A program made the translations under genes and the position numbers. Positions 4,201 to 32,773 of a stretch of 33,332 nucleotides of DNA are shown here, piece by piece; the stretch's first letter is position 1; every line of letters starts with the position of its first letter. The notes under the pieces are model-generated. The model was given only the letters and a program-made list of their open reading frames with translations. It had not been told where the DNA came from and did no database searches. This stretch comes from Candidatus Hydrogenedentota bacterium (GTDB lineage: Bacteria; Hydrogenedentota; Hydrogenedentia; Hydrogenedentales; JAGMZX01), in assembly GCA_029556545.1 (NCBI GenBank), contig JAKQEQ010000080.1, positions 1-33,332 of the forward strand, written 5' to 3'.

Positions 4201-5774
4201 TTGCGATAGGTCACGGGATCGCCTGCCTCAAATCGCCATGTCCCTGTGGAGTACAGATCAGTGCTGCCTGGATTGGTGGTGTCGAAGAATGCGACCGTGC
4301 CGGGCGCTCCCGGTGTCCCGCCGCTTCCGCCGTCAACGTGGGTCGTGCCTAAGAATACGTGTGGGAGATGGGCGCAGTAAACGGCAATGCGTCCACCGCC
4401 GCCGCCGCCTTGACCGCATATGCTGTCGCCGCCGTACGCGTCTACGGCGCCGGAGCCGCCGAGCGCGCCCGTAGTGATATAGATGCTACCGCCCGACCCC
4501 GCGCCATTACACGCATCGTCCCCGTTGGCCGCGACTTGGCCGTCCAACGTCAGATTGCCCGCTACGTTCAACCGAATCGCGCCGCCGGCGGGGGACTCGC
4601 CGCCGCCGCTGCCGAAGTCGGTGGGGTGCGCCGCGGAACCGTACGTCGCAGGGCCACCGCCCCCGACGCCGCCGTAGCTGCCGCCCTGCCACCAATCCGC
4701 GCCCGCGCCGGGGCCGGCATTGGACGGATTGCCGGCGCCGGATGCCGTCAACGTACTGCCGGGTGCGATAGTGACGTCGCCTGTGGCGTGCAGCGTGATA
4801 TTGCCTTGTATCCACGAATTTCCGGCCACGTTCAGGGTGGCGACATTTAGATTGAGAGCGGGAAATGGGAAAGTGCGGCCATACAGGTCAAGACTGGACA
4901 TGTTCCCCAGAGAGAACTGCGCTGCTGAGATGTTTGTCAGCGCGGCCTCATAGGTGGCTGCGGTTCCGTCGAGGAAGATCGCGCCGTATTGCGTCGGGTC
5001 GCCCGCCTGGAAGCGCCATGCATGGCCGGCGTGCAGGACAAGACTGGCGGGGCTGCTTCTATCAAGAAAGGCGACGGTTCCCGCTTCTCCGGGCGGACCG
5101 CCGGTTCCGCCGTACGCCGATGCCGCGCCAATAAACGAACTTGCCTCATAGTATACCGCTACGCGCCCGCCGCCGCCGCCCCCGTTGCCGCAAGTACTGT
5201 TGCCGCCGTCCGCAGTGAACGCGCCGATGCCTTCGAGTTCGACGGTCGCGAGGTAGACTGTTCCTCCGGCGCCTGCGCCATTGCAGGTGCTGATGCCGTT
5301 TGCGCTGATTGTGCCATCGATGATGGCGGTGTCGCCCACTTCGATCCGAATGGCCCCGCCCCCCGCGGACTCTCCACCGCCGCTTCCCTTGTTCACCGGT
5401 TCAACGGCGGACCCGTAAATCGCCGGTCCGCCGCCGCCCGCGCCGCCGTAACTTCCACCTTGCCACCACTCGGCGCCGGCGCCCGGCCCCTGCTGCGCCG
5501 GGAATCCAGTTCCATCGGCGGAGATGGCGGCGCCCTCTCCGACCTCGAATTCGCCGATGACGACAAGCGTCATCGACCCGAGCAGGGTCAACGTGGCGTT
5601 GTTATCTACCTTGACATTGTCGAATTCCAGGACGAGGTCCGGCCCTAGGATGGTATCGGTCGTTACGAGGAGGTCCGCGCCTCGCACCGGGGTCGGCCAT
5701 GCGGCCAACAGGATGCCGGCAAGGAAATGGAAAGAAACAAACACTTTGGAGTCAACATGCTTGCTGTTCTTCAT
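1230..5774 (-). CDS. Giant secreted Gly-rich / PKD / 78-aa-repeat protein with dockerin-like tail
   Basis: I choose the ATG at 5774 (TTGGAG upstream), giving 1514 aa. An in-frame start at 5810 lacks this support. A signal peptide ends near PVRGA-DLLV. Residues about 30-1010 hold four modules of about 257 aa. Each has hydrophobic strands, then Gly-rich segments such as GGSYGGAGGGGP, GSGGGESAGGGAI and GQGGGGGGRIAVY, then a WRFQAGDP-type strand. This layout suggests a long beta-structured stalk. A PKD domain (WWEWDFGD, HIYQTPGLFTVSLTV) lies around 1025-1108. Four 78-aa repeats (VTLAGLPGDPVTGPDG, SFSPPSR, DQDY) follow to about 1420. The last about 85 aa are a paired dockerin-like module whose first half has an EF-hand-like loop, DSNGDSQINLTE. 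No Gly-Glu linker is present, unlike its neighbours. No catalytic motif is visible, so adhesion or structural surface display is inferred. Confidence 0.9.
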   Translation of the reverse strand: MKNSKHVDSKVFVSFHFLAGILLAAWPTPVRGADLLVTTDTILGPDLVLEFDNVKVDNNATLTLLGSMTLVVIGEFEVGEGAAISADGTGFPAQQGPGAGAEWWQGGSYGGAGGGGPAIYGSAVEPVNKGSGGGESAGGGAIRIEVGDTAIIDGTISANGISTCNGAGAGGTVYLATVELEGIGAFTADGGNSTCGNGGGGGGRVAVYYEASSFIGAASAYGGTGGPPGEAGTVAFLDRSSPASLVLHAGHAWRFQAGDPTQYGAIFLDGTAATYEAALTNISAAQFSLGNMSSLDLYGRTFPFPALNLNVATLNVAGNSWIQGNITLHATGDVTIAPGSTLTASGAGNPSNAGPGAGADWWQGGSYGGVGGGGPATYGSAAHPTDFGSGGGESPAGGAIRLNVAGNLTLDGQVAANGDDACNGAGSGGSIYITTGALGGSGAVDAYGGDSICGQGGGGGGRIAVYCAHLPHVFLGTTHVDGGSGGTPGAPGTVAFFDTTNPGSTDLYSTGTWRFEAGDPVTYRNVLLSDCVAAYAPALTVAAENFTMEGDSILTAYDRTLPFAPLTLNVANLDLLDTSSIEGNITVDASGYVTIAQNAGIHADGIGHPAQSGAGAGDEWYRGGSYGGRGGSGPDPYGSAVLPADLGSGGGEGAGGGAIFLSVEGTLDVAGTVTANGADACNGAGSGGTINISAGAFAGAGMLAADGGSSGCGQGGGGGGRIAVYYVSGDSPQPAHAAGGDLGGEPGTVGYFKTLGRSPGVNLLAGPTWRFQRNDEGLLAYHDITITNGSAATYEDGSDIEAAGDITVGGAASLSLYSGTLPYLPANLTCANLTVGPSCTLRGNFTIQTSTLIVAPLGAIRADGCGHPTGAGPGAAASWESGGGYGGAGGGSGGGSTYGSAEWPVDPGSGGGSGAGGGGGGVLRIDASGEIAVHGSLSADGVDPGNCHGGGSGGSINLTCYTFSGAGAITANGGTAVCGGFGGGGGRISARYIETLYSGALLALGNNGGADGTVTEFFLPTAGFTASPVVGATPLPVQFTDTSDPGNGMTIVWWEWDFGDATNSTDQNPLHIYQTPGLFTVSLTVTTVAGADTESKTNFIVVNPVVSGTITANGAGLAGVTLVGLPGDPVTGPDGTYGVVLPLHWSGTVTPTLTGSSFSPPSRSYVNLSADTRDQDYTAINPVVSGTVSANGVGLADVTLAGLPGDPVTGPDGLYSAEVPYNWSGTVTPTLAGSTFSPPSREYANLTADAADQDYAAVNPIVSGIVTANGLGLADVTLAGLPGDPVTGPDGLYSVEVPYNWSGTVTPTLAGSTFSPPSREYANLTADAADQDYAAVNPVVSGIVTANGLGLADVTLAGLPGDPVTGPDGLYSVEVPYDWTGIVTPIRQSYGFEPESRSYTNLTENSPDQNYDGRILSHSADSNGDSQINLTELLRVIQFYNSDGFHCEEGTEDGYAPGPGDQTCAPHASDYAPAGPDWRIKLTELLRVIQFYNSGGYHACPDQGTEDGFCPGAA
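1545..2468 (-). repeat. Four tandem 234-bp coding repeats
   Basis: The block starting AGGGAACCTCC recurs at 1646, 1880 and 2114, exactly 234 bases apart. The two central units are almost identical in DNA. The outermost copies are more diverged, and the fourth (protein C-terminal) copy ends with a different strand pattern (YGFEPESRSYTNL). Each unit encodes one 78-aa domain, probably a small beta-sandwich of the carboxypeptidase-regulatory type. Confidence 0.9.
2740..5690 (-). repeat. Four Gly-rich modules of about 770-785 bp
   Basis: The marker GGSYGG/GGGYGG is encoded near 5460, 4690, 3915 and 3130, giving a period of about 770-785 bases. The units are diverged in DNA but keep the same order of Gly-rich blocks and paired Cys (CNGAG...CGNG/CGQG). 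The duplication is therefore older than that of the 234-bp units. Confidence 0.8.
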
Positions 5775-5810
5775 GATACGAATCTCCAAGAGAAGGCGGA
5801 AGCGCGACAC

Positions 5811-6349: not shown

Positions 6350-9049
6350 TCATCCGCTTCCGGGGCAGAAGCCGTCCTCCGTGCCTTCCGCCGGGCAGTA
6401 GTGATAGCCGCCGGAGTTGTAGAACTGGATTAGGCGCAGCAACTCGGTAAGAACGATCTGCCAGTCCGGCCCACTCGGCGCGTAGTCGCTGTCGTGCGGA
6501 CAACAGGTCTGGTCCGCGCCCGTGCCGGGCACGAACCCGTCCTCCGTGTCGCCGGGGTCTGCCGCGCAATGAAACCCGCCGGAGTTGTAGAACTGGATCA
6601 CCCGCAGCAACTCGGACAGGCCGATCAGGTTGTTCCGGTCCTGGTCCGCCGTGTGATATTCGCTCGCGCAGGGGTCGCCCTCACCCTCCCCCTCACCCTC
6701 GCCTTCACCCTCGCCTTCGCCCTCGCCCTCGCCCTCGCCTTCGCCCTCGCCTTCACCTTCACCCTCGCCTTCACCTTCACCCTCGCCTTCACCCTCGCCT
6801 TCACCCTCGCCTTCACCCTCGCCTTCTGCGCCGCCGGCGTCGCGCACCAGCCGCACATAGTTGTATATGCGAATAGCGTCGCCCTGCGGACCACGACCCG
6901 TTGGGTAATCGGCGGGATCGCCCGCTTTGGGGTCGCTACGCTGGCAACCGGCACCGTGGATGTCGGTCCACGTGCCGTTCATGTACCCGAGCGCACGGCC
7001 AAAGGCGACGTAATTCGCCTCATTGCCGACGATGGTTCCCTCGAGAGATTCGGCGGCGTGCGTGGTTCCCGTCCAGTAGAATGGATAGTCGGCCTGGCCT
7101 GCTTCGTTGGTGATTTGCGTGCAGGTAAAGAGCGGGTCAATGGCCGCCGAAGCGGTGGTATTGGGCGACCGGGTGTAATCCACGATGCTCTGAAGCTCCT
7201 TGGCGTTCGGAAGGCGCCAATCGTCATAGCCCAGGTAGTTCTGGGAGTTCTTCGTGTGCACCCACGCCAGCGCGCTCTCCCAGTTCATGCCGGAGCCGCA
7301 GTCCGCTTGTGTCCATATTAGGCCGGCGGCAAGGTCGGTCACGGTGCCGTCGCCGTTGACGACGAACTGGTTGACGCCGTAGCTGGTGTTGCCGCGGACG
7401 CACAGCACGTGATACGGCTTTCCGGTGGCTGCCGAGACGGGATAGCCCTTGATGCGGCCGTCGGCGAAGTTCACGCCGAACATCTGCTCGGTGGCGGCGA
7501 CATACAACGTGGAGGTGACCCATTGCGAGTCGATGATCCGCTCTGTTATGGGGGTTCCGCCAAGGCCGGTTCCGGCGGACTCGCCGATAAAGCCGTAAGC
7601 GAATCCGAAGACGTCCGTGTCGATGAACGGCGTCGTGCCTTCGGTCGCTGTGGGATCGAGGTCAACGCCGCTGTGGTCAATAAGCGAGTAGAGTTCCTTG
7701 ACGGTGGGCAGGCGCCAATCGTTGTAGCCGCCATAGGCGGCGGCGTTGAGCGTGGCCGGAAAAAGCACGGCGTTCTGATACGTCAGTTTGTCGTCGTGCG
7801 TGAGCGAGCCGTCGAAATTCGTGTCCGGACTTTGCATCCAGGTCAGCCCGGTGTTGTTGTCATAGACGGTCAGCCCGTCACCGCTGAGCGTGTAGCTGGG
7901 CTGGTTGCCGGCGAATTGGGCGTCCTGCCCAGAAAAGGGCTGCCCCGAGATCGGGCACGCGATTGCCGCTGACGTGTCGTAGCAATCCGTCTGGTTCGTA
8001 TCCACCACCGTGTAGCCGATCGCTTCGCCCTCGCCTTCACCTTCGCCTTCACTTTCTCCTTCGCCTTCACCTTCGCCTTCGCCTTCGTCCTCACCTTCGC
8101 CTTCGCCAGCCGGTATGCGCTCGAAAAAATGGACCGGCTGTATGCTGTATGTGTTCGCTTCGCTTGCCGTGTAGTAGCCTATGTCATCGGCGGCGAAGGC
8201 CACGGCTTCGCCCTGGATTTCGAATACCAACGGCACGGGACAAGATGAGCGAAACAACGCTTCGTGAAGCATCTCGCCGGGAAGTCGCTTCCACAGATGC
8301 GCCATGTAGTAGGTGCGAATCAGGATTTCGTCGCCCGCCGGCGAGACGTCCCCCGCCGTGATCATTCCAGGCAGCCCCGTGCCGAAGGACAAAGTCCCGA
8401 TCTCCTCCAATACGGCCTCGATGCCGGGAGTGTGCGGCGCGGCCTTCCGGAAGATATGACACAGGCCGCCCTCCACCTGCGGGCTGGAGCTGTCCTTGGT
8501 TATCAGGTAGATATCGCCGAGAATCGGGTCAACCAACAGGGTCCCGCAGTCATAGACCACGGTCGGCGCGAACGGATACACCAATGGAAACGCTTCGACG
8601 CCTTCCACGAGGACGTCTTGGGGCGTCTGCAGCGGGTCGACTTCCGGTTCCGCTATGCGGTAGATGACCAGGCAGGTTCTGTAGAGGCCGTTATTGCCGA
8701 AATCGCCGACGTAGGTGTAGTCGCGTTGCGCGTCCGGGCCAGGTCCGAAGGCCATGTCCTCCCAATCCACCGCGCCCGCCCCGTCCAGCAGATATACGCC
8801 CAAGTGCTCTCCTGTGTGCGAAAGCGCGTACAGGCGCGGCGCATCGCCGCTGTCATTGTGCGTCCAGAAGACTCCCGGGTGTTGTCGGCTGTCCAGCAGC
8901 CCCCAGATTTCGGTCAAGGCCGGCGATTGGGGCGTGCAGTAATACACGCCGTCCTGAAACTGAGGGCATGCATAGGCTGCCAGGCACAACAACATCGCCG
9001 ACGCCACGAGGGCGCATGAGAACAAGAGACTGGTGCGCGAAGTTCTCAC
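6350..9049 (-). CDS. Secreted propeller-like / double DUF1566 protein with Gly-Glu linkers and dockerin-like tail
   Basis: The GTG start at 9049 follows GAAAGGT, and the product is 899 aa. A signal peptide (SLLFSCALVASAMLLCLAAYA) precedes a propeller-like domain to about residue 312 (WTHNDSGDAPRLYALS, VDWEDMAFGPG, YVGDFGNNGLYR). A first Gly-Glu linker covers about 312-343. Two DUF1566/Lcl_C domains (PF07603 family) follow. Each has the hallmark NDWRLPTVKEL or DDWRLPNAKEL and a closing V(L)CVRG or YVRLVRD strand, spanning about 350-550 and 555-735. A second, longer Gly-Glu linker covers about 739-790. The last about 108 aa are the paired dockerin-like module with CCPHDSDY and FCPG cysteines. 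DUF1566 domains are known mostly from secreted or surface proteins, some resembling C-type-lectin folds. Ligand binding at the cell surface is therefore an inference. Confidence 0.92.
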   Translation of the reverse strand: MRTSRTSLLFSCALVASAMLLCLAAYACPQFQDGVYYCTPQSPALTEIWGLLDSRQHPGVFWTHNDSGDAPRLYALSHTGEHLGVYLLDGAGAVDWEDMAFGPGPDAQRDYTYVGDFGNNGLYRTCLVIYRIAEPEVDPLQTPQDVLVEGVEAFPLVYPFAPTVVYDCGTLLVDPILGDIYLITKDSSSPQVEGGLCHIFRKAAPHTPGIEAVLEEIGTLSFGTGLPGMITAGDVSPAGDEILIRTYYMAHLWKRLPGEMLHEALFRSSCPVPLVFEIQGEAVAFAADDIGYYTASEANTYSIQPVHFFERIPAGEGEGEDEGEGEGEGEGESEGEGEGEGEAIGYTVVDTNQTDCYDTSAAIACPISGQPFSGQDAQFAGNQPSYTLSGDGLTVYDNNTGLTWMQSPDTNFDGSLTHDDKLTYQNAVLFPATLNAAAYGGYNDWRLPTVKELYSLIDHSGVDLDPTATEGTTPFIDTDVFGFAYGFIGESAGTGLGGTPITERIIDSQWVTSTLYVAATEQMFGVNFADGRIKGYPVSAATGKPYHVLCVRGNTSYGVNQFVVNGDGTVTDLAAGLIWTQADCGSGMNWESALAWVHTKNSQNYLGYDDWRLPNAKELQSIVDYTRSPNTTASAAIDPLFTCTQITNEAGQADYPFYWTGTTHAAESLEGTIVGNEANYVAFGRALGYMNGTWTDIHGAGCQRSDPKAGDPADYPTGRGPQGDAIRIYNYVRLVRDAGGAEGEGEGEGEGEGEGEGEGEGEGEGEGEGEGEGEGEGEGEGEGEGEGEGEGDPCASEYHTADQDRNNLIGLSELLRVIQFYNSGGFHCAADPGDTEDGFVPGTGADQTCCPHDSDYAPSGPDWQIVLTELLRLIQFYNSGGYHYCPAEGTEDGFCPGSG
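6675..6826 (-). repeat. Gly-Glu coding hexamer tract, long linker
   Basis: About 152 bases of imperfect CCCTCG/CCTTCA/CCTTCG hexamers encode about 25 Gly-Glu dipeptides before the C-terminal module. Third-position variation shows it is older than the pure tract at base 1. Confidence 0.9.
8023..8107 (-). repeat. Gly-Glu coding hexamer tract, internal linker
   Basis: Hexamers encode about 14 Gly-Glu units with one Asp and one Ser interruption, between the propeller-like domain and the first DUF1566 domain. Its right end forms the edge of the duplicated segment shared with bases 1-1197. Confidence 0.9.
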
Positions 9050-9251: not shown

Positions 9252-12200
9252 TTATGCTATCCCGGGGCAGAAGCCGTCCTCTGTGCCTTCCGCCGGGCAA
9301 TAGTGATAGCCGCCGGAATTGTAGAACTGAATGACGCGCAACAATTCCGTCAACTTGATTTGCCAGTCCGGGCCAGCGGGCGTATAGTCGCTGTCGTGGG
9401 GACAGCAGGTCGTGTTCGCGCCGGGCCCGGCCACATAGCCGTCCTCGGTGTCGCCGGGATTCGCCGCGCAATGGAACCCGCCCGAGTTGTAGAACTGGAT
9501 CACCCGCAGCAACTCGGTCAATTCGATCTTGCTGCTGTGGTCCTGGTCCGCCGTGTGCCACTCGTCGACGCAGGGCTCGCCCTCTCCTTCTCCTTCGCCT
9601 TCGCCCTCTCCCTCTCCCTCTCCCTCGCCTTCGCCTTCGCCTTCGCCTTCGCCTTCCCCTTCGGCGCCGCCAACAGTGGCGATGCACAACATCCAGCCAT
9701 TCAAGCTGCCGGTGCTTCCGCCGTCCAAGTCCGTCACCTTGAGCAACCAGACGCCGCCGGTGGCCTCGCCCTCGAAGCCCGCAAGCGGTTGCTGCGGGAT
9801 ATAGATGTCGCTGTAGGGAGCGAAACCGGCGAAGATGCTGATCTCCGCCGTGTCGTCGAAGCCGGTCTGCTCAAAGTCCTGCCCGTCGTTGTCCAATTCG
9901 GAGAAGAGAACGACCTCTATCCCCTGCGGGCTTTCCAGCCGCACGTCGAGTGCGGAAGTGCTGTCGCAGGTGATATCGAGCAGCACGTTGACGTCCTGGA
10001 CGTAGCCCTCCTCCATAATCGTCAGTTCGCTGATCACCGTATCCCCCGCGACAAGGGGTAGGGGCGTATCCAGTGCGACATAGGGCGAGCAACCGCCCGT
10101 ATAGGCGGCGGTGATAGTGACGAACTGGCCTTCAGTGGATACGGTCGCTTGCCGGTTCGATGGTTTGGTCCAGCCGGGCACTTGATTGAACTCGATGGTG
10201 TAGGAACCCAAGGCCACCTCTTCCATTTCGCTGCTCGCCAGCCACGATGCGCCGTCGGTGCGGCGCCACCGCGCTCCCGCGTTCGCCGCGGCTGCCGGTG
10301 TGATGTTGACCTGGATCATGCCGGTGTGCGCGAGATATAGCCCTTCGGCCTGGGTATCCACGCCGCTTGTAACAAAGACGACGATGTTCTCCGGCGTGGT
10401 CCAGCCGGCCACGGAACTGAACTCGACCTCGTGGAAGCCGTCCTCCAGGTTCGAGACGGTTTCACCGCTTTCGTTCCACGTCGCCGTGTCCACGATACGC
10501 CACTGTGCCCCGGCGGACACCGCGCCGGCGGGAAGCAGAGTCACCGTCAGGGCACCCGTCTCGGCATATTGCGCTGTCTCCTCGGTCGTCGCATTAAGGG
10601 CGACGGTCACGATCATGTCCTCGGGCGCTATCCAGCCCGCCACGGGGCTGAATTCGATCCGGTATCTGCCCACGGGGACATCCGTCTCCGTGACACCGCT
10701 GTCGAGCCACGGCCCGCTGCCGTCCGGCGTACCCTCGGGAGGCATCATCTCGTCCGTCGTGATGCACAGGCTCCAACTGTTCAGGACGGTTTCATAGCCT
10801 TCACCATCCACTGTCCAGTCCGTGACAATAAGTTCCCAACTGCCCGCTGCGGGGATACCGTTGAGGCCGGATAGCGGGTAATCCGGACGGAACACGCCTG
10901 AATAGGGCGCCGTGCCTTCGCTGATTAGCACGGCGGCCTGGTCGTCGAATACGGTGCCGCGCATGTTGCTCCCGGAGAGCACGGTGCCCATCACGGGAAA
11001 CGTTTCCACATTCGCGGTGACCGCGTACAGCGTAATCTCAAGCTGGCTATTGTCCGGACAGTCGAGGTCCAGGTGAAGATTGATGTCCGTGATGTTTCCG
11101 GGCTCCGTCACCTCCAGCGTGGATATGGTACTGCCGCCATCGCAGGATTGGGGCACGTCGGTGCTGGCAATGTTCACGCATTCCAGTTCCGACGGGTCTG
11201 GAAGCCGTTCCGCGCGCCGCCACTGCGCCCCGGCCGCGGCGGCCCCCGCCGGCAGCAGCGTGACTTGCAGCGCGCCGCTCCTGAATTCGTAGTAGCCCTG
11301 TGCCACGGTGGTTTCACCGAGTTCGACCGTGACGCTCTGATCCGGCGGCCGCGTCCAGCCCGCGAGGGGCTTGAACTCGATGACGTGGTCGCCGACCGGC
11401 ACGAGACTCTCGGTCTGGCTGGCGCCCAGCCAGGTCTCCGTGCCCTTGCGACGCCAGTATGCGCCCGCCCCGACCGCTTCTGTCGGGAAAATATCGACAC
11501 GAAGCGCCCCGGAGCTTGTTAGCGTGTAGGTGCCCGTCCTGAAAACTGATTCACCTTGCGACACGTCCGCGCCCATCGGGTCGGGCACGGTCCAGTTGGG
11601 TAATGGTTTGAATTCGACGATGTGATTCCCTATCGATACACTTGCGGTGTAGCCGCTATCTTTCCAGGAATCAGGCGGCAGGAGGGGGTCCCGCCACCGC
11701 CGCCACTGTGCGCCCGCTGCTACGGCGCCCGCTGGTTCGATAGTAACGGTTAGAGAACCGCTCTGCGCATAGGTGCCGCTCGTGGTGGCCAGCGTGTCCG
11801 GCAATATGGTCACCGTCTGCGCCGCGGGGCGCAGCCAGCCGGATATCTGCTTGAATTCCACGACCCGGTTGCCGGCCCACACCTGGGTTTCCGTATAGCC
11901 GCTATTGCGCCATTCGAACGCGCCCTGGCGCCGCCATTGCGCGCCCGCGATACGGGCAAGAGGCGGATTGATGGAGACGGTCAGCGAGCCGAATCCCGAC
12001 AGGGTAAACGCCGGGCTGGGAGGGGACCACGGCCCGATATTGCCCGCGTGGTCAATCGCGCGCACCCGGGCATGGTAGGAACCTCCCTCGACCGCCGTGA
12101 ATTCATGATAAAGCGTGTTGCCCACATTGCCGTCGAAGACGTCGTTGCCGTCCGGCGTCGTGCCGATCTGGCATTCGTAGGACGCGACCCCCGAACCGCT

Positions 12201-14381
12201 GTCCGTCGCCTCGGTCCACTCGAAGTACATATCGAGGCCGCTGTTCTGCTTCACGAGCGGCGCGCCCGGCGCTGTGGGCGCCTGGAAATCGAAGTGGTAG
12301 GGTCCCAACCTGACGGTCGAGGGCCGGACCTCGCCACACCGGTTCACGGACCGCAGATGGAGATAGTAACTTCCAGAGCCTTGGTACGGGCTGACATAGA
12401 GGTATTCCGTGTTCCAAGTCGGTTCCGACCCGGAGAAAGTATAGGAAGGAATCATATTCCATGCGTAAGCAAAGCCGTTCACAAGTTGTTGGTCATCGAA
12501 ACCCAGCGGATTGGTGAAGGAATAGGTGTCGTCGGGGTGATACGTCCCTTCCTGCAGCGGGAAGACGCTTAACACGTTGACACCGGGGATGGGCAGTTCC
12601 GCGTGGGTGCACACCGAGATGTATCGCTCGGGGGGCCACAGGCTGTAACTCCAAGTGCGCACATCGTTGCGTTCACCCGCCACGGCGCGCACGCTGAACG
12701 TGAGCTTCGTGTTCACCGGGTAAACATTCGGAAGTTGGATGACGTTCACATTCGCGGCGGCCATCTGGACCGGCTCCGAGGGGGGCTGCCCGTCATAGCC
12801 GATGTAGCACCGGAAGCCGAATTCATCAGAGGAATTGTCGTTCCAGCCAACCTGAATCTTTGAGGCCGATACGGCACTGCCCCACAGACCCGACGGCGCC
12901 GCGGGCGGCGGCGTGCCGGTCGGGTCGAACGCGTACAGCGTATTCCCTTCCGAGAAGTACATGCGCTGCTCGTCCGCGATCAACTGGCGTGGACTCGCGC
13001 CCGCATGAAGCCAATCCGCAACCACGTAGGTGCCGCTGTTGTAGCCGTCGGTGACCCACAGTTCCCGCCGCCCATCCCCCTCGGCGTCCGCGGTGAAATA
13101 GCACCTGCCCCCCATGGCCGCGAAGTTCGACGGATTCGACCCTTCCGCGCCGGGGCGGATATCCTTAACGAGCCACGTACCCCCTTCCGTACCGTCGCTG
13201 CGCCACAACTCCGTGCCGTTGCTGCCGTTGTCCGCGGCGAAGTACACGGCGTCAAAACTCCCGTACTTGGCCAGGTACATCCCGGAGGGAGCCGACCCCT
13301 CGTTGCCGGGGCGGATGTCCTTGATAAGGACCGTGCCGGACTCCGTGCCGTCGCTCTTCCACAATTCCCGTCCGTAAGCCTCCGAAAACGCGGCAAAGAC
13401 GATGGACCCGTACAATGGTCCGGCCATATCGCTGACGGTCGAACCCGAACTGCCGGTGTTGATGTCCTTGACCATCTGAATATTGGAGCCGCCACGGTCC
13501 ACCCACAATTCCCGGCCGTGCGTCCCGTTGTCCGCCGTGAAGAAAAGCTTTGCATCGCTTCCAAGCAAGACGCGCATAAGCGACTGCGGGGACGACCCCG
13601 TGGAACCGGGCCGCAGGTCATGAACGGTGTGGGTGGGAACCCTGTTGCCATAGGTATCTTCCACCACCGTGAAGGTGACATATTCGCGTCCGTGGGTCCC
13701 GTCGTCCGCGGAGAAGGCAAAGTAGGATCCCGGTCTGCGCGTGATATCCCTCGGGTTCGCGCCGCTTGCACTGATGCGTGTACTGAATACTTCGAAGGGT
13801 TTCCAGAGAATGATGGGAGACAGGTACACGAAATCCGCCGAGCCGCCAAGGGCCAGGTCCGCGTCCCCATGCAGGTCGGAAACGCCGTCAAACCAGATGC
13901 CGCCGAGGTTGTAGGGCTCCACATGCTCTGGCGTGTAGTAGCGATAGGGCGCCCCGCCGCCACGGCGCATGGCATAAAGCCTGTAGAGGTCTTCTGCCCC
14001 GTCCGCGTTCTGCCACACATTCCTGGCAACGAAAAATATCCGGTCTAAGCTCAATATGTACTCGCTTGGCGGGCCCGAGTAAACATACGCGTGCGGAAAC
14101 GACCCTGATGGTCCTTCCCAGATATCCCCCCGCTGCACCGTTCCCGAGACGGTCCCGTTGCTTGTCCACGGCTCGACATTGCTTGCGCCATTCTGAGCCC
14201 CCGCGAAGTACAATATGCCCGCGTCAACAAAGAACGAGCCGGGCGCCACATCAAATGTCCTCAACTCGGTCAATCGCGGACGGGCCTGCGCCTCGGCCTG
14301 CGCCCCGATCAAACATGCCGCCAGCACCAACAGCGCCGGCATCCAAGACCATCGCGTCCAAATACCTTTGATATACAACAT
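9252..14381 (-). CDS. Giant secreted ELWxxDGT / Fn3 / PEGA-like / P-domain protein with dockerin-like tail
   Basis: ATG at 14381 follows AAGGAG at 7-base spacing, and the product is 1709 aa. A signal peptide (MPALLVLAACLIGAQAEAQA) precedes hyalin-like ELWxxDGT repeats to about residue 490 (ELWKSDGTESGT, ELWRSDGTEGGT, KDIRPG). Two fibronectin-III-like domains follow (about 492-585 and 700-795). Six repeats of about 78 aa run from about 797 to 1430 with the core GAQWRR, VEFK and GWTxP (PEGA-like). The fourth repeat is split by a P-domain (about 1064-1214: ECVNIAS, FDDQA, PDYPLSGLNG, SWSLCI). A second P-domain follows the repeats (about 1430-1563: FDDTAE, PQQPLAGFEG, GWMLCI). A Gly-Glu linker and the paired dockerin-like module finish the protein. 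P-domains normally accompany secreted proteases, but no protease domain is visible. The role is probably surface adhesion or scaffolding. Confidence 0.92.
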   Translation of the reverse strand: MLYIKGIWTRWSWMPALLVLAACLIGAQAEAQARPRLTELRTFDVAPGSFFVDAGILYFAGAQNGASNVEPWTSNGTVSGTVQRGDIWEGPSGSFPHAYVYSGPPSEYILSLDRIFFVARNVWQNADGAEDLYRLYAMRRGGGAPYRYYTPEHVEPYNLGGIWFDGVSDLHGDADLALGGSADFVYLSPIILWKPFEVFSTRISASGANPRDITRRPGSYFAFSADDGTHGREYVTFTVVEDTYGNRVPTHTVHDLRPGSTGSSPQSLMRVLLGSDAKLFFTADNGTHGRELWVDRGGSNIQMVKDINTGSSGSTVSDMAGPLYGSIVFAAFSEAYGRELWKSDGTESGTVLIKDIRPGNEGSAPSGMYLAKYGSFDAVYFAADNGSNGTELWRSDGTEGGTWLVKDIRPGAEGSNPSNFAAMGGRCYFTADAEGDGRRELWVTDGYNSGTYVVADWLHAGASPRQLIADEQRMYFSEGNTLYAFDPTGTPPPAAPSGLWGSAVSASKIQVGWNDNSSDEFGFRCYIGYDGQPPSEPVQMAAANVNVIQLPNVYPVNTKLTFSVRAVAGERNDVRTWSYSLWPPERYISVCTHAELPIPGVNVLSVFPLQEGTYHPDDTYSFTNPLGFDDQQLVNGFAYAWNMIPSYTFSGSEPTWNTEYLYVSPYQGSGSYYLHLRSVNRCGEVRPSTVRLGPYHFDFQAPTAPGAPLVKQNSGLDMYFEWTEATDSGSGVASYECQIGTTPDGNDVFDGNVGNTLYHEFTAVEGGSYHARVRAIDHAGNIGPWSPPSPAFTLSGFGSLTVSINPPLARIAGAQWRRQGAFEWRNSGYTETQVWAGNRVVEFKQISGWLRPAAQTVTILPDTLATTSGTYAQSGSLTVTIEPAGAVAAGAQWRRWRDPLLPPDSWKDSGYTASVSIGNHIVEFKPLPNWTVPDPMGADVSQGESVFRTGTYTLTSSGALRVDIFPTEAVGAGAYWRRKGTETWLGASQTESLVPVGDHVIEFKPLAGWTRPPDQSVTVELGETTVAQGYYEFRSGALQVTLLPAGAAAAGAQWRRAERLPDPSELECVNIASTDVPQSCDGGSTISTLEVTEPGNITDINLHLDLDCPDNSQLEITLYAVTANVETFPVMGTVLSGSNMRGTVFDDQAAVLISEGTAPYSGVFRPDYPLSGLNGIPAAGSWELIVTDWTVDGEGYETVLNSWSLCITTDEMMPPEGTPDGSGPWLDSGVTETDVPVGRYRIEFSPVAGWIAPEDMIVTVALNATTEETAQYAETGALTVTLLPAGAVSAGAQWRIVDTATWNESGETVSNLEDGFHEVEFSSVAGWTTPENIVVFVTSGVDTQAEGLYLAHTGMIQVNITPAAAANAGARWRRTDGASWLASSEMEEVALGSYTIEFNQVPGWTKPSNRQATVSTEGQFVTITAAYTGGCSPYVALDTPLPLVAGDTVISELTIMEEGYVQDVNVLLDITCDSTSALDVRLESPQGIEVVLFSELDNDGQDFEQTGFDDTAEISIFAGFAPYSDIYIPQQPLAGFEGEATGGVWLLKVTDLDGGSTGSLNGWMLCIATVGGAEGEGEGEGEGEGEGEGEGEGEGEGEGEGEPCVDEWHTADQDHSSKIELTELLRVIQFYNSGGFHCAANPGDTEDGYVAGPGANTTCCPHDSDYTPAGPDWQIKLTELLRVIQFYNSGGYHYCPAEGTEDGFCPGIA
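9577..9663 (-). repeat. Gly-Glu coding hexamer tract
   Basis: Imperfect CCTTCG/CCCTCT hexamers encode about 14 Gly-Glu units linking the second P-domain to the dockerin-like module. Confidence 0.9.
10735..11190 (-). other. P-domain inserted inside a PEGA-like repeat
   Basis: The coding segment for the first P-domain lies between GAQWRRAERL and PWLDSG, the two halves of the fourth PEGA-like repeat. In the other five repeats these motifs are separated by only a few to about a dozen residues. The flanking halves still match the other repeats well, so the host domain has tolerated the insertion. Confidence 0.8.
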
Positions 14382-26033: not shown

Positions 26034-26062
26034 TGCCCTTCTTTCCATGCACAGGTGCGAGG

Positions 26063-27259
26063 CTACGCCATGATGTCGCGGTCCACGACTTGGCCGGGCC
26101 GCGTGCTCGTGTGCGGCCACAGCTTTCTTCCGGGATAGATGGCCGTGTGGATGCCTGTGTGAACGTGATCGCCGAGGATCGCGCCGAGTTTGCGGCGGCC
26201 CGTGTCGATGAGTTGGTCCTTGATCACCGATTTCTGCGCGCTCTTGTCGTGGCGGTAGTTCGCGGTGACGGTGCCGCAGCCGAGGTTGACGCCCTCGCCC
26301 AGGATGCTGTCGCCCACGTAGTTCTGGTGGGGCGCCTTCGCGCCGTCCATGAGGATCGAATTCTTGATCTCGCTGGCCTGGCCCACCTTGCAGCCGTCGC
26401 ATAACGTCGCGCCGGGCCGGAGCCAGCAGTTCGGGCCGACCTCGCACCGATCGCCGATGTAGACGGGGCCGTCAATCACCGCGCCGGGCCGGACGACCGT
26501 ACCGCGCCCGATATAGACCGCGCCGGTGAGGTGCGCCGCCGGACTGACTTCGCCGAGGTTCTCGGGGCGCAAGAAATTATCGAGCCAGAAGGCGTTCGCG
26601 TCGAGGAGATGCCAGGCGTAGCCTACGGGCAGCCAGTAGCCGCCGGCGCGCACGACGCGGAAGTCGCCTCGCTCGGCGAGGGTCTGCACGGCGCTCGTGA
26701 GTTCGATTTCGCCCCGTTCGGAAGGGGCCGTCTCGCGTAATACGTCGAACACGGCGGGCGTGAACTTGTAGACACCGATGTTGGCGAGGTTTGAAAAGAC
26801 TTCCTTCGGTTTTTCGACCAGGCGCACGACGCGGTCGTCATCGTCGGTCTCGTAGACGCCATAGGGGCGCGGGTCCTCGACGGCGAGCGCGAGTGCCGCC
26901 TGGTCCCGTTCCGCCACGCGCGCCAGGTCGCGCGGGTCGTACAGGTCATCGCCGTTCATCACGAGGAACGGCTCGTTCACGACGCCGGCGCACGAGAGCA
27001 CCGCGTGGCCCGTGCCGCGCCGCTCCGTCTGCGAGACGTAGGTGAGCGGGAGACCCCGGTATTCGACGCCGAACCGCTCGCGGATCATGGCCTCGCGATA
27101 GCCGACGACGATCACGACGCCGTCCACGAGTCCCGACAACGCATCGAGCTGGCGCGCGAGAATGGGCTGATTCATCACGGGCAGGAGCGCCTTCGGGCGC
27201 GTGAGCGTCAACGGGACAGTGCGGGTCGATTCGCCCGCCGCCATGATGATTGCCTTCAT
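26063..27259 (-). CDS. Bifunctional GlmU-like sugar-1-phosphate nucleotidyltransferase / acyltransferase
   Basis: The 398-aa product starts at ATG 27259 after AAGGAA. The N-terminal nucleotidyltransferase domain has IIMAAGESTRTVPLT...RPKALLPV (pyrophosphorylase signature), RRGTGHAV, and MNGDDLY with the metal-binding aspartate. From about residue 245 a left-handed beta-helix of hexapeptide repeats follows (GAVYIGRGTVVRPGAVIDGPVYIGD-type turns), with NCWLRPG, GTVTANY and LGAILGDHVHTGI. Such two-domain proteins, best known from archaea and many bacteria, make UDP-GlcNAc or another nucleotide sugar from a hexosamine or hexose 1-phosphate. The acyl acceptor and sugar cannot be fixed here. It likely feeds cell-envelope polysaccharide synthesis, and its partner downstream is the Gfo/Idh-fold gene. 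Confidence 0.92.
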   Translation of the reverse strand: MKAIIMAAGESTRTVPLTLTRPKALLPVMNQPILARQLDALSGLVDGVVIVVGYREAMIRERFGVEYRGLPLTYVSQTERRGTGHAVLSCAGVVNEPFLVMNGDDLYDPRDLARVAERDQAALALAVEDPRPYGVYETDDDDRVVRLVEKPKEVFSNLANIGVYKFTPAVFDVLRETAPSERGEIELTSAVQTLAERGDFRVVRAGGYWLPVGYAWHLLDANAFWLDNFLRPENLGEVSPAAHLTGAVYIGRGTVVRPGAVIDGPVYIGDRCEVGPNCWLRPGATLCDGCKVGQASEIKNSILMDGAKAPHQNYVGDSILGEGVNLGCGTVTANYRHDKSAQKSVIKDQLIDTGRRKLGAILGDHVHTGIHTAIYPGRKLWPHTSTRPGQVVDRDIMA

Positions 27260-27328
27260 TCGCGTTCCTTCAGCCGCCGGCCGAGACTTTCCCTGTCTAT
27301 CTCATGGTTTCTCCAGGAGGACGCGCTG

Positions 27329-27358
27329 AATCTATCACCCCCGCCGTTCGGCCCGCAA
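27329..27358 (-). promoter_or_regulatory. Extended -10 promoter of the GlmU-like gene
   Basis: Reading leftward, TTGCGG (27358-27353), an 18-base spacer and TAGATT (27334-27329) preceded by TGA. The leader to the ATG is about 60 bases. The promoter is back to back with that of the acyl-CoA dehydrogenase gene. Confidence 0.5.
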
Positions 27359-27382
27359 TCCCGTCGCAGGCGAGACCGCGCG

Positions 27383-27411
27383 TTGACGGCCCTGATAGGG
27401 CGTGATAGACT
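27383..27411 (+). promoter_or_regulatory. Sigma-70 promoter of the acyl-CoA dehydrogenase operon
   Basis: TTGACG (27383-27388), a 17-base spacer and TAGACT (27406-27411) preceded by TGA give the best promoter in the window. A small hairpin CTGT-CGTG-ACAG (27419-27430), flanked by TGCC/GGCA, lies at the predicted 5' end of the mRNA. Confidence 0.65.
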
Positions 27412-27465
27412 GCCGCCGCTGTCGTGACAGGGCAGAACGCAGTACCTGAAATCAAGGGGAAACGC

Positions 27466-28629
27466 ATGGATTTTCGGCTGTCGGAAGAACAACGTGAGAT
27501 GCAGGCCATGGTGCGCCGCTTCGCTCAGACGGAGATCGCGCCGCTGGCCCGCCAATTGGACGAGGAAGAGCGGTTTCCCGCCGAGACCTTTCACAAGATG
27601 GGCGAACTGGGCCTGCTCGGCCTGCTTGTTCCCGAGGAATACGGCGGGGTCGGCGGAGACGTGCTCACGATGTGCGTGGTCACGGAGGAAATCGCCTACG
27701 CTTGCTCGTCGACCGCGCTTTCGTTCTTGGCGCACGCCACGCTCTGCTGCCACAACCTCGCCTGCAACGGCTCTCATGAACAGAAAGCGAAGTACCTGCC
27801 CGACCTTGCCTCGGGAAAGGTCCTTGGCGGCATCGCCATGACGGAGCCGGGCGCCGGGTCGGACGCGCTCGGCCTCCAGACTTCCGCGGTGCGCGTGGGC
27901 GACGAATACGTCCTGAACGGGAGCAAGACCTTCATCACCAACGCGTCGGTGGCGGGGGAGCTGCTGGTCTACGCGCGCACGGACAAGGACGCGGGGCCCC
28001 GCGGCCTGAGCCAGTTCATCGTCGAGATGGATACGCCGGGCGTCTCCGTCGGCAAGCCGTTCAAGAAGATGGGCATGCGCGGATCGCCGACTTCGGAGGT
28101 CTTCTTCGAGGATTGTCGCGTGCCCGCCGCGAATCTTGTCCAGGGTGAGAACCAGGCTTTGGGCATCCTGCTTGGCGGGCTCGACGTCGAGCGGACCGTC
28201 GGCGCGGCGATGGGCGTGGGGGGCGGGCGCGCCGCGCTCGATCGCTCGCTGAAATATGCGCAGGAACGGACCCAGTTCGGCCAGCCCATCATCATGTTCG
28301 AGATGGTCGCCGAGAAACTGGCCGATATGGCCATGAACATCGAGGCCGCGCGGTTACTTACGCAAAAGGCCGCGGTCCTGTGTGACGCGGGCGTGCGCTG
28401 CTCCGCCGAGGCGTCCTACGCGAAGCTCTTCGCCACCGAGAGTTGCCAGAAAGCGTGTAACGACGCGATCCAGATTTTCGGCGGCTACGGGTACATGCAG
28501 GAGTACGAGGTCGAACGCATGCTGCGCGACGCGCGCGTCGGCACCATCGGCGGCGGGACCTCGGAAATCCAGCGGCTTATCATCGTGAAGGAACTGGTCA
28601 AACGAAGCATGGGAGGGACACAGCCATGA
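27466..28629 (+). CDS. Acyl-CoA dehydrogenase
   Basis: ATG at 27466 follows AAGGGGA, and the product is 387 aa, the normal family length. This FAD flavoprotein oxidises acyl-CoA to the 2-enoyl-CoA. MDFRLSEEQ, VPEEYGGVGGD, AMTEPGAGSD, GSKTFITNA, KMGMRGSPTSEVFFEDCRVP, YAQERTQFGQPI, QIFGGYGYMQEYEVERMLRDAR and GGGTSEIQR appear in the usual order. The C-terminal position that holds the catalytic glutamate in medium-chain enzymes is glycine here (IGGGTSE). A glutamate in GLDVER (Glu242) matches the position used by isovaleryl-CoA and long-chain dehydrogenases. This points to a branched-chain or similar substrate rather than a straight medium chain. The stop overlaps the MaoC-like start by ATGA, so the two products probably act in sequence. 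Confidence 0.95.
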   Translation: MDFRLSEEQREMQAMVRRFAQTEIAPLARQLDEEERFPAETFHKMGELGLLGLLVPEEYGGVGGDVLTMCVVTEEIAYACSSTALSFLAHATLCCHNLACNGSHEQKAKYLPDLASGKVLGGIAMTEPGAGSDALGLQTSAVRVGDEYVLNGSKTFITNASVAGELLVYARTDKDAGPRGLSQFIVEMDTPGVSVGKPFKKMGMRGSPTSEVFFEDCRVPAANLVQGENQALGILLGGLDVERTVGAAMGVGGGRAALDRSLKYAQERTQFGQPIIMFEMVAEKLADMAMNIEAARLLTQKAAVLCDAGVRCSAEASYAKLFATESCQKACNDAIQIFGGYGYMQEYEVERMLRDARVGTIGGGTSEIQRLIIVKELVKRSMGGTQP

Positions 28630-29087
28630 GCACCGACGAGGGCATCTACTTCGAGGACATCGAGGAGGGCCGCGTAGCGACCTCCCCGGCGCGGACCGTC
28701 ACGGAAGCGGATATCGTGAATTTCGCGGGGCTCTCCGGCGACTTCAATATCCTGCACACGGACGCGGAATTCATGAAGGGGACGCCTTTCGGCCAGCGCA
28801 TCGCACACGGGCTGCTCGGATTGTCCATCGCCTCGGGACTCGTCGCGCGGAACCCCGGCGCGGAGCAGCACCGCCTGGTCGCGTTCCTGGGCATGACGTG
28901 GGACTTCCGGAACCCCGTGCTTATCGGTGACACCATCCACGTAGTCCAGACCGCGGCCTCGAAGCGCCCGACGAGCAAGCCCGGCCTTGGCGTCGTGGTC
29001 TACGACGTGCAGGTGAAGAACCAGCGCGGGCAGGTGTGCCAGGAAGGGCAGTGGAAGGTCATGTACATGAAGCGCAACGTGGGGTGA
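28626..29087 (+). CDS. MaoC-like (R)-specific enoyl-CoA hydratase
   Basis: The 153-aa single hot-dog-fold protein starts at the ATG overlapping the dehydrogenase stop. The hydratase-2 motif SGDFNILHTDAEFMKGTPFGQRIAHG carries the catalytic Asp39 and His44 and the downstream glycine-rich AHGLLGLSIASG helix. DFRNPVLIGDTIHV is a second typical MaoC block. Such enzymes add water to 2-enoyl-CoA, the product of the dehydrogenase just upstream. The pair therefore looks like two consecutive steps of acyl-CoA breakdown, or of a related route such as mesaconyl-type hydration. Later steps are not encoded nearby. Confidence 0.93.
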   Translation: MSTDEGIYFEDIEEGRVATSPARTVTEADIVNFAGLSGDFNILHTDAEFMKGTPFGQRIAHGLLGLSIASGLVARNPGAEQHRLVAFLGMTWDFRNPVLIGDTIHVVQTAASKRPTSKPGLGVVVYDVQVKNQRGQVCQEGQWKVMYMKRNVG

Positions 29088-29440
29088 TCGGTGTCAGACC
29101 TTCTGGGAAGGCGGGAGGGCGGTCCAGCGCCTACCCATCGACTTTGCGGGAAACTCCGCAAGAAATCCAAAGAAACCTAAAGAATCCTTGACGTAAGCGG
29201 GCCGGCATGACTTACCGAAAGCGTCTCTTCGCAGGGGAAACGGAGTGACGGCGGCTCTGCGCCCCTTTGTAGTCTGGGCGCCCGGAATCGGACAGGGCAT
29301 TTCATTGTTACCAAAAGGGTGCCGTGGGCGCAGGCCCGGTTGCAGTACGAAGCGCGAATAGGTGTTGTGAGGTCGGTCTCCCCCGCGTGGGGCATTTGCA
29401 GTTAGCCATGGCGCAAGGCCAAGTCGAAAGGGAAGGGTCC
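29088..29440. other. Leader region of the PASTA lipoprotein gene
   Basis: A 353-base stretch without a supported gene. A small stem TTGCGG (29144-29149) / CCGCAA (29156-29161) may end the acyl-CoA operon but lacks a U-tract. The middle contains several short purine-rich and GC-rich blocks. I tried to match cobalamin, glycine and cyclic-di-GMP riboswitch cores and found no convincing fit. No clear -35/-10 pair was found, though the promoter of the lipoprotein gene must lie here or upstream. Confidence 0.45.
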
Positions 29441-32400
29441 ATGTCTAGGAAGATCACGTTACGCCAGAGTCTGTTGATAACCCTCATGCTGTTGACGCTC
29501 ATTTCCATGGGCGGATGCCCGCGCCGCGTGACGGTGCCCGACGTACTCGGCATTACGCAGGCCGGGGCGGAGGCGGCGATTGTGAACGCCGGGCTGACGG
29601 TGGGGTCCGTGACGGAGGAATACAGCGATACTGTTGCGGAGGGCTTGGTGATAAGCCAGAGTCCCGCGGCTGGCACGAAGGTGGCTCGGGGCAGTGCGGT
29701 GGCGCTGGTGGTGTCGAAGGGCCCGGAAGCCCGAATCGTGCCTGATGTGGTCGGACTCGCGCAGGCGGCGGCGGAAGCCGCGATCATCAGCGCGGGGTTG
29801 TCCGTGGGCGCGGTCACGGAGGCGTACAGCGCCACGGTTCCCGCAGGCAATGTAATCAGCCAGAGCCCCACGGCGGGATCGAGCGTCCCGGCGGGAACGG
29901 CGGTGGCGCTGGTGGTGTCGAAGGGACTGCCGATCGTACCGAACGTGGTCGGGCTTGCCCAAGCGGCGGCGGAAGCCGCGATCATCAGCGCCGGGCTGTC
30001 CGTGGGCGTGGTCACGGAGGCATTCAGCGCCACGGTTGCGGCGGGCCTCGTAATCAGCCAGAACCCGGCGGCGGGTTCGAGCGCGGCGGCGGGCAGCGGC
30101 GTGGACCTCGTGGTCTCGAAGGGACCGTTTACCGTTTCGGGGCGGGTCCTCTTTGACGATGGCGGCCCCGTGGCGGGCGCGGCGGTGTTGGGCAGCGTCA
30201 TCGCGGAGGAAATGCTGAGCGCGTTGCGACAGGCCGCGGTGCAACGCATGTTTGCGACCGACTGGTCGCGTCCCGAGTTCAAGAGCAACCCGCTGCTTAT
30301 GCAGGTGTTGCAGCAATTGCCCTTGCCGCTCCTGCAGCCGTTGCAGGAGCAAAGCGCCACCACGGACGAGAACGGCAATTTCACGTTCGGGCTCGATATT
30401 GACGCGCTGCCCGTGAAGGTGCTCGTGGAGGTCAGCTTCCAACCGGAGGGGCTGCCGGCGGTGCAGACGGCCAAGTGGACGACCGCCGAAGCCGGCCCGG
30501 CGGATATGGGCACAATCATCATCCCAAATCCCGCGGACCGTGAAATGACGGTCACGAACGGGACCAGCGTGAGCGACGACGGCTCGATTCAGGTGGACGG
30601 GTTGCCGCCTGAAGTGGACCGACTGTTTGGCGCGGCCTACGATCCGGATGAAAACCCCGAAGCCTTCCCCGGCGAATTCGCTGAAATGGGCAACATTCCA
30701 TTGAACTCGACGGTCTTCTTGTGGATGGAGGCGTTCGACGCGGCCGGAAATCCGGTGCACGACTTGTCCCATGCGGTCACGATACGGTCCCGCATTCCGT
30801 TCACCCAGTGGATTGACCTCGAGGACATTTCCAACGGCACGGACCGCATCGAGATACCGATTTACACGTACAACGAAGCGATCAACATGTGGGAGCAGGA
30901 AGGGATCGGCTGGGTGGAAGACGGCAGTCGAACCGTCTTGCCCGAGGATGCCGAGCCTTCGATCCTGGACGGCACGTTTCCAGGCGATTTGTACGCGGCA
31001 TTCACGACAAACCATTTTTCCTGGATGAACGTCGACTATGCCTATATCGGGCCGTGGACCCTCTCGCGGCTGGACCCGGCCATGCGAAATAGTGACTGCC
31101 TCTTCGAGGCGCTCCAACTCGCCAAGACCATCGCGAAGTCGGCGGCCGGGCGCGCGGCTTACGCCAAATTCAACACGCCGGACGGCGACCTCGACGTCGA
31201 GTTGGCCGACGCGGCGGGCCCCGAACTCAAGAACGGGGACATAGGGAACAGCTATGGCGAGTTCAAAGGCAATGAGCAGGGGGACCGCGATGATCAGTTC
31301 TACGTGAGCAACAACGTCTGGAACGGCTGCGGCGACGGCGCTACGGCGGACCAGAAGAAGAACACCACGTTGCTCATGGCTATCACTATCCTGCATGAAA
31401 CCGCGCACTGGAAGTGGGACGTCAAGCATGACGGAGGCAAGTGGACGAATGCCGAGCCGGGCGGCGAGGCCGGCAACGAACTCGAGAAGGACCTGTTCGG
31501 CGGCATTATCACGAACGGGAACGGCATCAAGCGCGACGGAAGCGCGGTGGACAACGCTACGCGCGACGGCTGGCTCAACCCGGCCAGTTGGCCGCCACCG
31601 GGCGGCAAGGCCGGGCTCGCCCAGGCCCCGGCAACGCCGCAGCAGGAGATTTCTCCCCTCGAACTGACCATTGCATTGGGGCAAACCGCCTTCGAACTCG
31701 GCGAAGAAATCCCGGTTACGGTGACCCACCGTAATGTTTCGACGCAGTCTATCCGCGTGCTCGATCAGATTGCGCTCGAGGGCTATCCGCTCTGGTTCGA
31801 GATTGTGCGCGACGGCGCCACGGAGCGGGTGCCTTTCGGCGGCAGCAGGGCCAAGCGCGGCATCGACTATGACGCGGACTTCGTCACGCTGCAACCGGAA
31901 GAATCGCTGAATACCGTCGTGACTTTGTTGCGCGACGATCTTGGCAAGTCGCGCTACAACCTGATCGCGTCCGGGGACTACCAGGTGACCGCCTACTACA
32001 GCGGGCACTGGGGACTTCCCGAGACCGCCTCCAACACGCTCGCGTTCAACGTGGGCGCAGGGGGCAGCATTTCGGGCTTGATCACGAACGCCGCAAGCGG
32101 CCTACCGATTCCCGGCGCGACGGTCAAAGTACTGCAAGGCGCAAACATCCTGACCACAGTGACGAGCGACGCCGTTGGCCTGTATCTGGTTCCCGAGCTT
32201 CCGGGCGGCGCGTTTACGCTCGAGGCGCAGGCCGCAGGTTTTCTTCGCAGCCGACAGGAGAATGTGGTGGTGACGGTGGGCGCGAATACGGTGGTCAACT
32301 TCAGTCTTTCGGCCTTGCTGGCGCTCGGCGAAATGCGCCTGGTCCTCACCTGGGGTCAGACCCCCAGCGATCTGGACTCGCATCTCTGGCTGCCCATCGA

Positions 32401-32773
32401 GATGCCCTATCACGTTTACTTCGGGTTGAGAGGCAGCCTGGAAGCATGTCCCTTCGCGGCGTTGGACACGGATGATACGACCGGTTTCGGCCCGGAGACC
32501 ATCACCATCCGGCAGCGGAGACTCGAGGGCACCTACATTTATGCCGTGCATAACTTCTCCGGGTTCCCGAGCTTGGCCGAGTCCGGGGCGCAGGTGCAGG
32601 TATTTGACTCGACAGGGCTCATCGCCACCATCAATGTCCCCACCGAAGGCGAGGGCATCATGTGGCATGTCCTCGAAATCGATGGATTAACCGGCGGGAT
32701 CACGGAGATCAATGAGATCGGGGGCTATACCGAGCCGTACCCGAGCACCGACAACGGCTGCGCAGTGGAGTAG
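29441..32773 (+). CDS. Lipoprotein with three PASTA domains, putative HExxH peptidase and DUF2135-like tail
   Basis: ATG at 29441 follows GGAAGGG, and the product is 1110 aa. LTLISMGGC is a lipobox (lipidated Cys26). Three PASTA domains of about 66 aa (VPDVLGITQAGAEAAI...VISQSPAAGTKV...VALVVSKG) fill about 30-228. A domain with a CnaB-like start (VSGRVLFDDGGPVAGA) and beta-rich regions follows. LHETAHWKWD (His652-His656) with EPGGEAGNELEKDLFGG about 15 residues on resembles a zincin with a glutamate third ligand. After it come a beta-sandwich-like segment, a carboxypeptidase-regulatory-like domain (GSISGLITNAASGLPIPGATV), and a C-terminal DUF2135/YfaP-like domain (LVLTWGQTPSDLDSHL, DTDDTTGFGPETITI, GTYIYAVHNFSG). 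Envelope-anchored peptidoglycan or glycan binding with local proteolysis is inferred. Confidence 0.9.
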   Translation: MSRKITLRQSLLITLMLLTLISMGGCPRRVTVPDVLGITQAGAEAAIVNAGLTVGSVTEEYSDTVAEGLVISQSPAAGTKVARGSAVALVVSKGPEARIVPDVVGLAQAAAEAAIISAGLSVGAVTEAYSATVPAGNVISQSPTAGSSVPAGTAVALVVSKGLPIVPNVVGLAQAAAEAAIISAGLSVGVVTEAFSATVAAGLVISQNPAAGSSAAAGSGVDLVVSKGPFTVSGRVLFDDGGPVAGAAVLGSVIAEEMLSALRQAAVQRMFATDWSRPEFKSNPLLMQVLQQLPLPLLQPLQEQSATTDENGNFTFGLDIDALPVKVLVEVSFQPEGLPAVQTAKWTTAEAGPADMGTIIIPNPADREMTVTNGTSVSDDGSIQVDGLPPEVDRLFGAAYDPDENPEAFPGEFAEMGNIPLNSTVFLWMEAFDAAGNPVHDLSHAVTIRSRIPFTQWIDLEDISNGTDRIEIPIYTYNEAINMWEQEGIGWVEDGSRTVLPEDAEPSILDGTFPGDLYAAFTTNHFSWMNVDYAYIGPWTLSRLDPAMRNSDCLFEALQLAKTIAKSAAGRAAYAKFNTPDGDLDVELADAAGPELKNGDIGNSYGEFKGNEQGDRDDQFYVSNNVWNGCGDGATADQKKNTTLLMAITILHETAHWKWDVKHDGGKWTNAEPGGEAGNELEKDLFGGIITNGNGIKRDGSAVDNATRDGWLNPASWPPPGGKAGLAQAPATPQQEISPLELTIALGQTAFELGEEIPVTVTHRNVSTQSIRVLDQIALEGYPLWFEIVRDGATERVPFGGSRAKRGIDYDADFVTLQPEESLNTVVTLLRDDLGKSRYNLIASGDYQVTAYYSGHWGLPETASNTLAFNVGAGGSISGLITNAASGLPIPGATVKVLQGANILTTVTSDAVGLYLVPELPGGAFTLEAQAAGFLRSRQENVVVTVGANTVVNFSLSALLALGEMRLVLTWGQTPSDLDSHLWLPIEMPYHVYFGLRGSLEACPFAALDTDDTTGFGPETITIRQRRLEGTYIYAVHNFSGFPSLAESGAQVQVFDSTGLIATINVPTEGEGIMWHVLEIDGLTGGITEINEIGGYTEPYPSTDNGCAVE
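29534..30123 (+). repeat. Three PASTA-coding repeats, about 198 bp
   Basis: The second and third units are almost identical in DNA over long stretches, with a period of 198 bases (marker at 29759 and 29957). The first unit is more diverged. This points to recent tandem duplication of the second unit. Confidence 0.85.

Follow-up and report, generated by a model that had tools for sequence, protein, structure and literature searches.

Can a lipoprotein that begins with PASTA repeats be a working zinc protease, and do these repeats define the protein? The question is raised by an open reading frame of 1110 amino acids on the forward strand (29441-32773; the ATG lies at 29441 and the stop codon ends at 32773) of the window, by which we mean the whole 33,332-nucleotide stretch of Candidatus Hydrogenedentota DNA analysed here. 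A sequence-only reading of this DNA had proposed a PASTA lipoprotein carrying a putative zinc peptidase, and the features on which it relied (the reading frame, the lipobox, three PASTA repeats, HETAH and the EPGGE...LFGG segment) are all present in the sequence. It was also right that the order of the parts is unusual. In the open-licence papers searched, as far as their titles and abstracts tell, a PASTA lipoprotein with a metalloprotease or sulfatase-modifying-factor domain is not described. The protein and the genes on both sides of it are arranged as follows:

28626-29087, forward strand: MaoC-type gene, the upstream flank, named from sequence
29441..29518, forward strand: signal peptide and lipobox, residues 1-26 (LISMGGC with predicted acylated Cys26; pattern match)
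29528..29719, forward strand: PASTA repeat 1 (PF03793, E 5.2e-20)
29735..29923, forward strand: PASTA repeat 2 (PF03793, E 8.3e-18)
29933..30121, forward strand: PASTA repeat 3 (PF03793, E 2.9e-15)
30128..30535, forward strand: transthyretin-like or carboxypeptidase-regulatory-like beta domain, residues 230-365 (weak PF13620; 34-42% identity in homologues)
30536..31048, forward strand: conserved scaffold region, residues 366-536, ending in HFSWMNVD (57-60% identity, four homologues)
31049..31600, forward strand: zincin-like metallopeptidase domain, residues 537-720 (Tox-MPTase3 matches, invariant active-site pattern)
31097..31099, forward strand: Cys553, invariant in alignments, predicted disulphide with Cys630
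31328..31330, forward strand: Cys630, invariant in alignments, predicted disulphide with Cys553
31394..31408, forward strand: HETAH (H652, E653, H656), predicted zinc ligands and catalytic Glu, invariant in five homologues
31460..31504, forward strand: GGEAGNELEKDLFGG (residues 674-688), E676 as predicted third ligand, E682 invariant, predicted helix at about 675-686
31655..32056, forward strand: Ig-like/beta domain, residues 739-872 (weak Big_3_5, E 0.005; 35-54% identity in homologues)
32066..32308, forward strand: carboxypeptidase regulatory-like (CarboxypepD_reg) domain, residues 876-956 (PF13620, E 1.3e-19)
32321..32770, forward strand: C-terminal module, residues 961-1110, with LTWGxxPxDLDSHLWLP (58-60% identity in homologues)
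32850 to the window end, reverse strand: Fis/AAA+ regulator, the downstream flank, convergent

The MLLTLISMGGC lipobox with Cys26 fits the PROSITE PS51257-type pattern. Judged by this cysteine, the protein is a bacterial lipoprotein, with acylation predicted. Each of the three PASTA matches exceeds the curated Pfam cut-off, and the E-value for the whole protein is 2.5e-51. The second and third repeats, which had been called recently duplicated, are the closest pair, yet they share only 79.7% of their protein and 81.2% of their DNA sequence, so that the claim was overstated. Three parts had been missed: the CarboxypepD_reg domain at 876-956, a second weak one at about 230-365 (PF13620 matches these residues in isolation with E 1.2e-4, below the cut-off) and the conserved HFSWMNVD region at 366-536. 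The latter has no clear family; it is strongly conserved and its C-terminal end is HFSWMNVDYAYIG. The tail had been described as DUF2135-like, but residues 874-1110 give no match to Pfam DUF2135 even at E ≤ 10. Within the C-terminal module, residues 963-1107 have a counterpart in a protein from a Deinococcus plasmid, at 45.6% identity.

In a scan of 84,980 species genomes, we found two homologues, L028 and L029, and among 395 relatives of the L028 genome we found L035/L037 and the divergent L038. A five-sequence profile detected no further homologues around the L038 genome. The comparison set is therefore five proteins, namely the window protein and four from another lineage, three of which are close to each other. 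The core aligns end to end, and the four homologues are 41-53% identical to the window protein. With the amino-acid composition of the latter, chance alone would give only 0.008 HExxH motifs. HETAH (652-656) turned out to be invariant in all five proteins while the identity of the domain falls as low as 34-39%, which is the conservation in orthologues that the sequence-only reading had asked about. In addition to H652, E653, T654, A655 and H656, the residues GGEAG 674-678, E682, LFG 685-687 and the pair Cys553/Cys630 are the same in all five.

Two glutamates of the EPGGE segment (672-676, followed by LFGG at 685-688) had been put forward as zinc ligands. The invariance of E676 speaks for one of them; the other, E672, was rejected as a conserved ligand, since L038 has Asp at this position. 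E676 thus appears to be the better candidate for the third ligand. It stands 20 residues after H656 (21 in L038). In thermolysin, the third zinc ligand E166 likewise follows H146 at a spacing of 20. Among the three close homologues, dN for the domain is 0.003-0.032 against a dS of 0.12-0.37 (dN/dS of about 0.1 or less), which indicates constraint at the protein level.

We also compared the domain with known zincins. Tox-MPTase3 (PF15639) is a zincin-like metallopeptidase of polymorphic toxins with the signature K, HExxH and F[DE] (PMC3482391). It matches residues 593-687 with an E-value of 0.0074 in the whole protein and 4.2e-4 in the isolated domain, both below the cut-off, and all five homologous domains match it weakly (best E 3.5e-6). 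The scores are 20.9 bits for the window domain and 19.4 and 16.6 bits for two whole homologues; the Pfam gathering score is 25 bits. Across 291 genomes, not one Tox-MPTase3 match lies above the cut-off, and short matches were seen in G052 and G129. The resemblance is that of an alpha+beta zincin with HExxH. The difference is that our domain is internal to a lipoprotein and not the tip of a toxin, and that GGEAGxxxExxLFG replaces F[DE]: the only Phe after HExxH belongs to LFGG. Domain scans recognised neither RHS repeats nor PVC-type elements in the window protein. Because the score is below the cut-off, the F[DE] signature is missing and the position is not that of a toxin, the domain is by these tests not a member of Tox-MPTase3; at best it is a distant relative. 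One homologue gave a marginal match to Aspzincin_M35 (PF14521; E 0.046). The third ligand of aspzincins is Asp, whereas the invariant candidate here is Glu676.

Zincins of the gluzincin type usually carry HExxH on one helix and the third ligand on the helix that follows. The window domain resembles thermolysin-type gluzincins (clan MA(E)) in its HExxH and in a Glu 20 residues on, on what is predicted to be the following helix, but has no sequence similarity to them in Pfam and PDB searches, and its third-ligand segment is GGEAG. A profile search of the PDB with the domain found no peptidase; mannose permease subunits that came up in the PDB profile searches (E 0.4-1.6) were judged to be chance matches. 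AlphaFold was run twice on the domain, from three sequences, and both models were of low confidence (mean pLDDT 52.7 and 57.0). In each of them HETAH falls in a long helix and the helix that follows holds E676/E682, with the middle of the domain unresolved. Using Foldseek against the PDB with both low-confidence models, we obtained no zincin and only noise. As judged from the sequences, an exported zincin-like domain is nevertheless well supported, since invariant motifs, weak zincin-family matches and low dN/dS all point to it.

The PASTA repeats behave differently. Between the lipobox and the core, the window protein has three PASTA repeats; L028 has a CHB_HEX_C_1/Fn3-associated domain, as do L029 and L035 by alignment; and L038 has essentially nothing, its lipobox and a Gly-rich linker leading straight into the core. 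The lipobox pattern was matched in the window and L038 proteins, and L029 is truncated at a contig end, so that its lipobox would fall outside the contig. A Calx-beta domain ends the homologues (scanned in L028 and L038) and is not found in the window protein. Thus, of the earlier proposal, the lipid-anchored zinc-peptidase-like protein holds by the conservation of HETAH, and PASTA as its defining part does not: none of the four homologues has PASTA, and the order to which the organism belongs places lipobox-PASTA stalks on unrelated enzymes. In L011 (1465-3657) and L024 (1012-3279), both from this order, a lipobox and PASTA precede an FGE-sulfatase domain, and in L014 (1-2196, reverse strand; same order) they precede PKD and an alpha/beta hydrolase. 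These three proteins have 3-8 PASTA repeats before the enzyme; they share the stalk with the window protein and differ from it in the catalytic domain. L013 and L018 carry long PASTA arrays immediately after the lipobox. Since the same stalk stands before a sulfatase-type and a hydrolase domain, PASTA is a stock stalk in this order, and by sequence comparison its place beside the lipobox is a local habit of which the peptidase is independent. In a whole-protein search, 88 of 100 relatives matched, and among the matches listed it was mostly the PASTA part that did so. The NCBIfam PknB model reached 161 of the 450 bits required, through the N-terminal PASTA part only. The repeats are indeed good matches to those of PASTA Ser/Thr kinases (PknB/Stk1) and PASTA penicillin-binding proteins, but the window protein has no kinase or transpeptidase domain, and its PASTA adjoins a lipid anchor and is lost in homologues.

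We consider it likely that the protein works as an exported, lipid-anchored zinc protease, with zinc binding and activity suggested by the motifs. Most of its length, however, consists of beta modules typical of binding proteins or stalks, and the scaffold modules occur in other lipoproteins that do not have this peptidase. It could therefore be chiefly an adhesin or a glycan-binding surface protein, whose zincin-like domain no longer cleaves anything and persists as a structural relic. In a relic one would expect HExxH and E676 to be lost, yet both are invariant in five of five proteins, and between the window protein and L028 the peptidase is the best conserved part (63.6% identity); we regard this explanation as unlikely. 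A role in targeting was also weighed. In kinases and penicillin-binding proteins, muropeptides or beta-lactams are established ligands of the PASTA domains, and the PDB sequence matches of our protein are to PASTA of PknB-type kinases, so the repeats might bind peptidoglycan and direct the enzyme to substrates in the wall. We give very little credence to such a wall-directed peptidase, because the enzyme is retained in four homologues that have no PASTA and because PASTA, which also stands on unrelated enzymes of the order, is not tied to this activity.

Two findings would also fit a peptidase toxin that is displayed on the surface against competitors and is a relative of the Tox-MPTase3 effectors known from polymorphic toxin systems: Tox-MPTase3 is the domain's main Pfam match, and between L028 and L038 its divergence far exceeds that of the scaffold (39% against 77% identity), as changing effectors would show. 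Such a toxin seems quite improbable: the match is below the cut-off and the F[DE] of PMC3482391 does not follow HExxH, the domain is internal and not C-terminal, with no recognised RHS/PVC-type elements, and what follows downstream is a regulator gene in convergent orientation, not a small immunity gene. Moreover, a lipid anchor is poorly suited to a toxin that must be released.

The uneven divergence of L028 and L038 extends to the beta domain after the peptidase, which is only 27% identical. dN is 0.51 in the peptidase and 0.13 in the scaffold (366-536), and dS is similar in both (0.85 and 0.90). The faster divergence could reflect either replacement of the peptidase cassette or faster change under selection, between which a dS near saturation does not distinguish. 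We also observed two very long lipoprotein-like proteins from distant genomes (L061 and L062), in which a transthyretin-like domain and an HFSxWNVD scaffold are followed by other modules, with no peptidase.

Between the MaoC-type gene and the convergent regulator, the peptidase gene is probably transcribed alone. Window positions 26061-29090 are collinear with a genome of the same genus, G001, at 79.6% DNA identity, a match that ends just after the MaoC gene, and the neighbouring acyl-CoA dehydrogenase is 90% identical there. This assigns the contig to the organism itself, and contamination of the metagenome-assembled genome was rejected as the contig's origin. Collinearity with G001 stops a few bases from the end of the MaoC-type gene (29090) and is lost before 26061, so that the peptidase gene lies outside it, at a synteny breakpoint. 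Of the 68 genomes searched in the order, none apart from the window's own has the peptidase domain, and the genome of the same genus lacks it too. A profile search of 386 genomes gave only a short weak stretch (G011, E 0.00175, profile positions 133-182, beyond HExxH). Viral contigs yielded no relatives, and plasmids yielded no match to the peptidase domain. The flanking genes are common to L028, L029 and L037 and not to L038; those of the window are different again, and no conserved operon partner was seen among the compared loci. The simplest reading is that the gene has probably moved between distant lineages.

The window has several other features of note. The gene at 1230-5810 (reverse strand) encodes a large PKD-domain protein and contains a tandem repeat with a unit of 234 bp (2.5-3.5 copies, matching by up to 96%). 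At 6350-9049 (reverse strand) there is a protein of 899 aa, which matches the Lcl C-terminal domain twice and has a TrAA12-like segment, and at 9252-14381 (reverse strand) a 1709-aa protein whose only recognised domain is a proprotein convertase P-domain. Low-complexity TCGCCT and TCGCCTTCACCC-type arrays occur in the latter gene and in the next large gene. A CACCCT hexamer array of 10.7 copies (1-64) occupies the very contig end, which is probably where the assembly stopped.

If the protein is the lipid-anchored zinc protease that we favour, it would be a surface protein of beta-sandwich modules with a single metallopeptidase domain of the zincin type. The zinc would be bound by H652, H656 and E676, and E653 would act as the general base. 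A probable disulphide between Cys553 and Cys630 would fit an extracytoplasmic location of the mature protein. The segment after the lipid-bearing Cys would be a replaceable stalk, which is PASTA in this protein, CHB_HEX in three homologues and missing in the fourth; the beta modules on either side of the enzyme may position it. Its most likely target would be a protein outside the cell, either foreign protein used for nutrition or other surface proteins. It is possible, though we hold this tentatively, that HExxH-x(19,20)-EAGxxxExxLFG together with the Cys pair defines a zincin family found above the cut-off in no library searched, riding on a mobile surface-lipoprotein scaffold of two distant lineages, whose membrane-proximal stalk is swapped and whose peptidase cassette is either replaced or changes faster than the scaffold.

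These results point towards a small family of zincin-like domains that the curated models do not cover. The use of PASTA as a general lipoprotein stalk before unrelated exported enzymes departs from the usual description of this domain. If the activity proves true, the protein would be a clear case of surface proteins whose modules are interchangeable and which have passed from one bacterial lineage to another, distant one.
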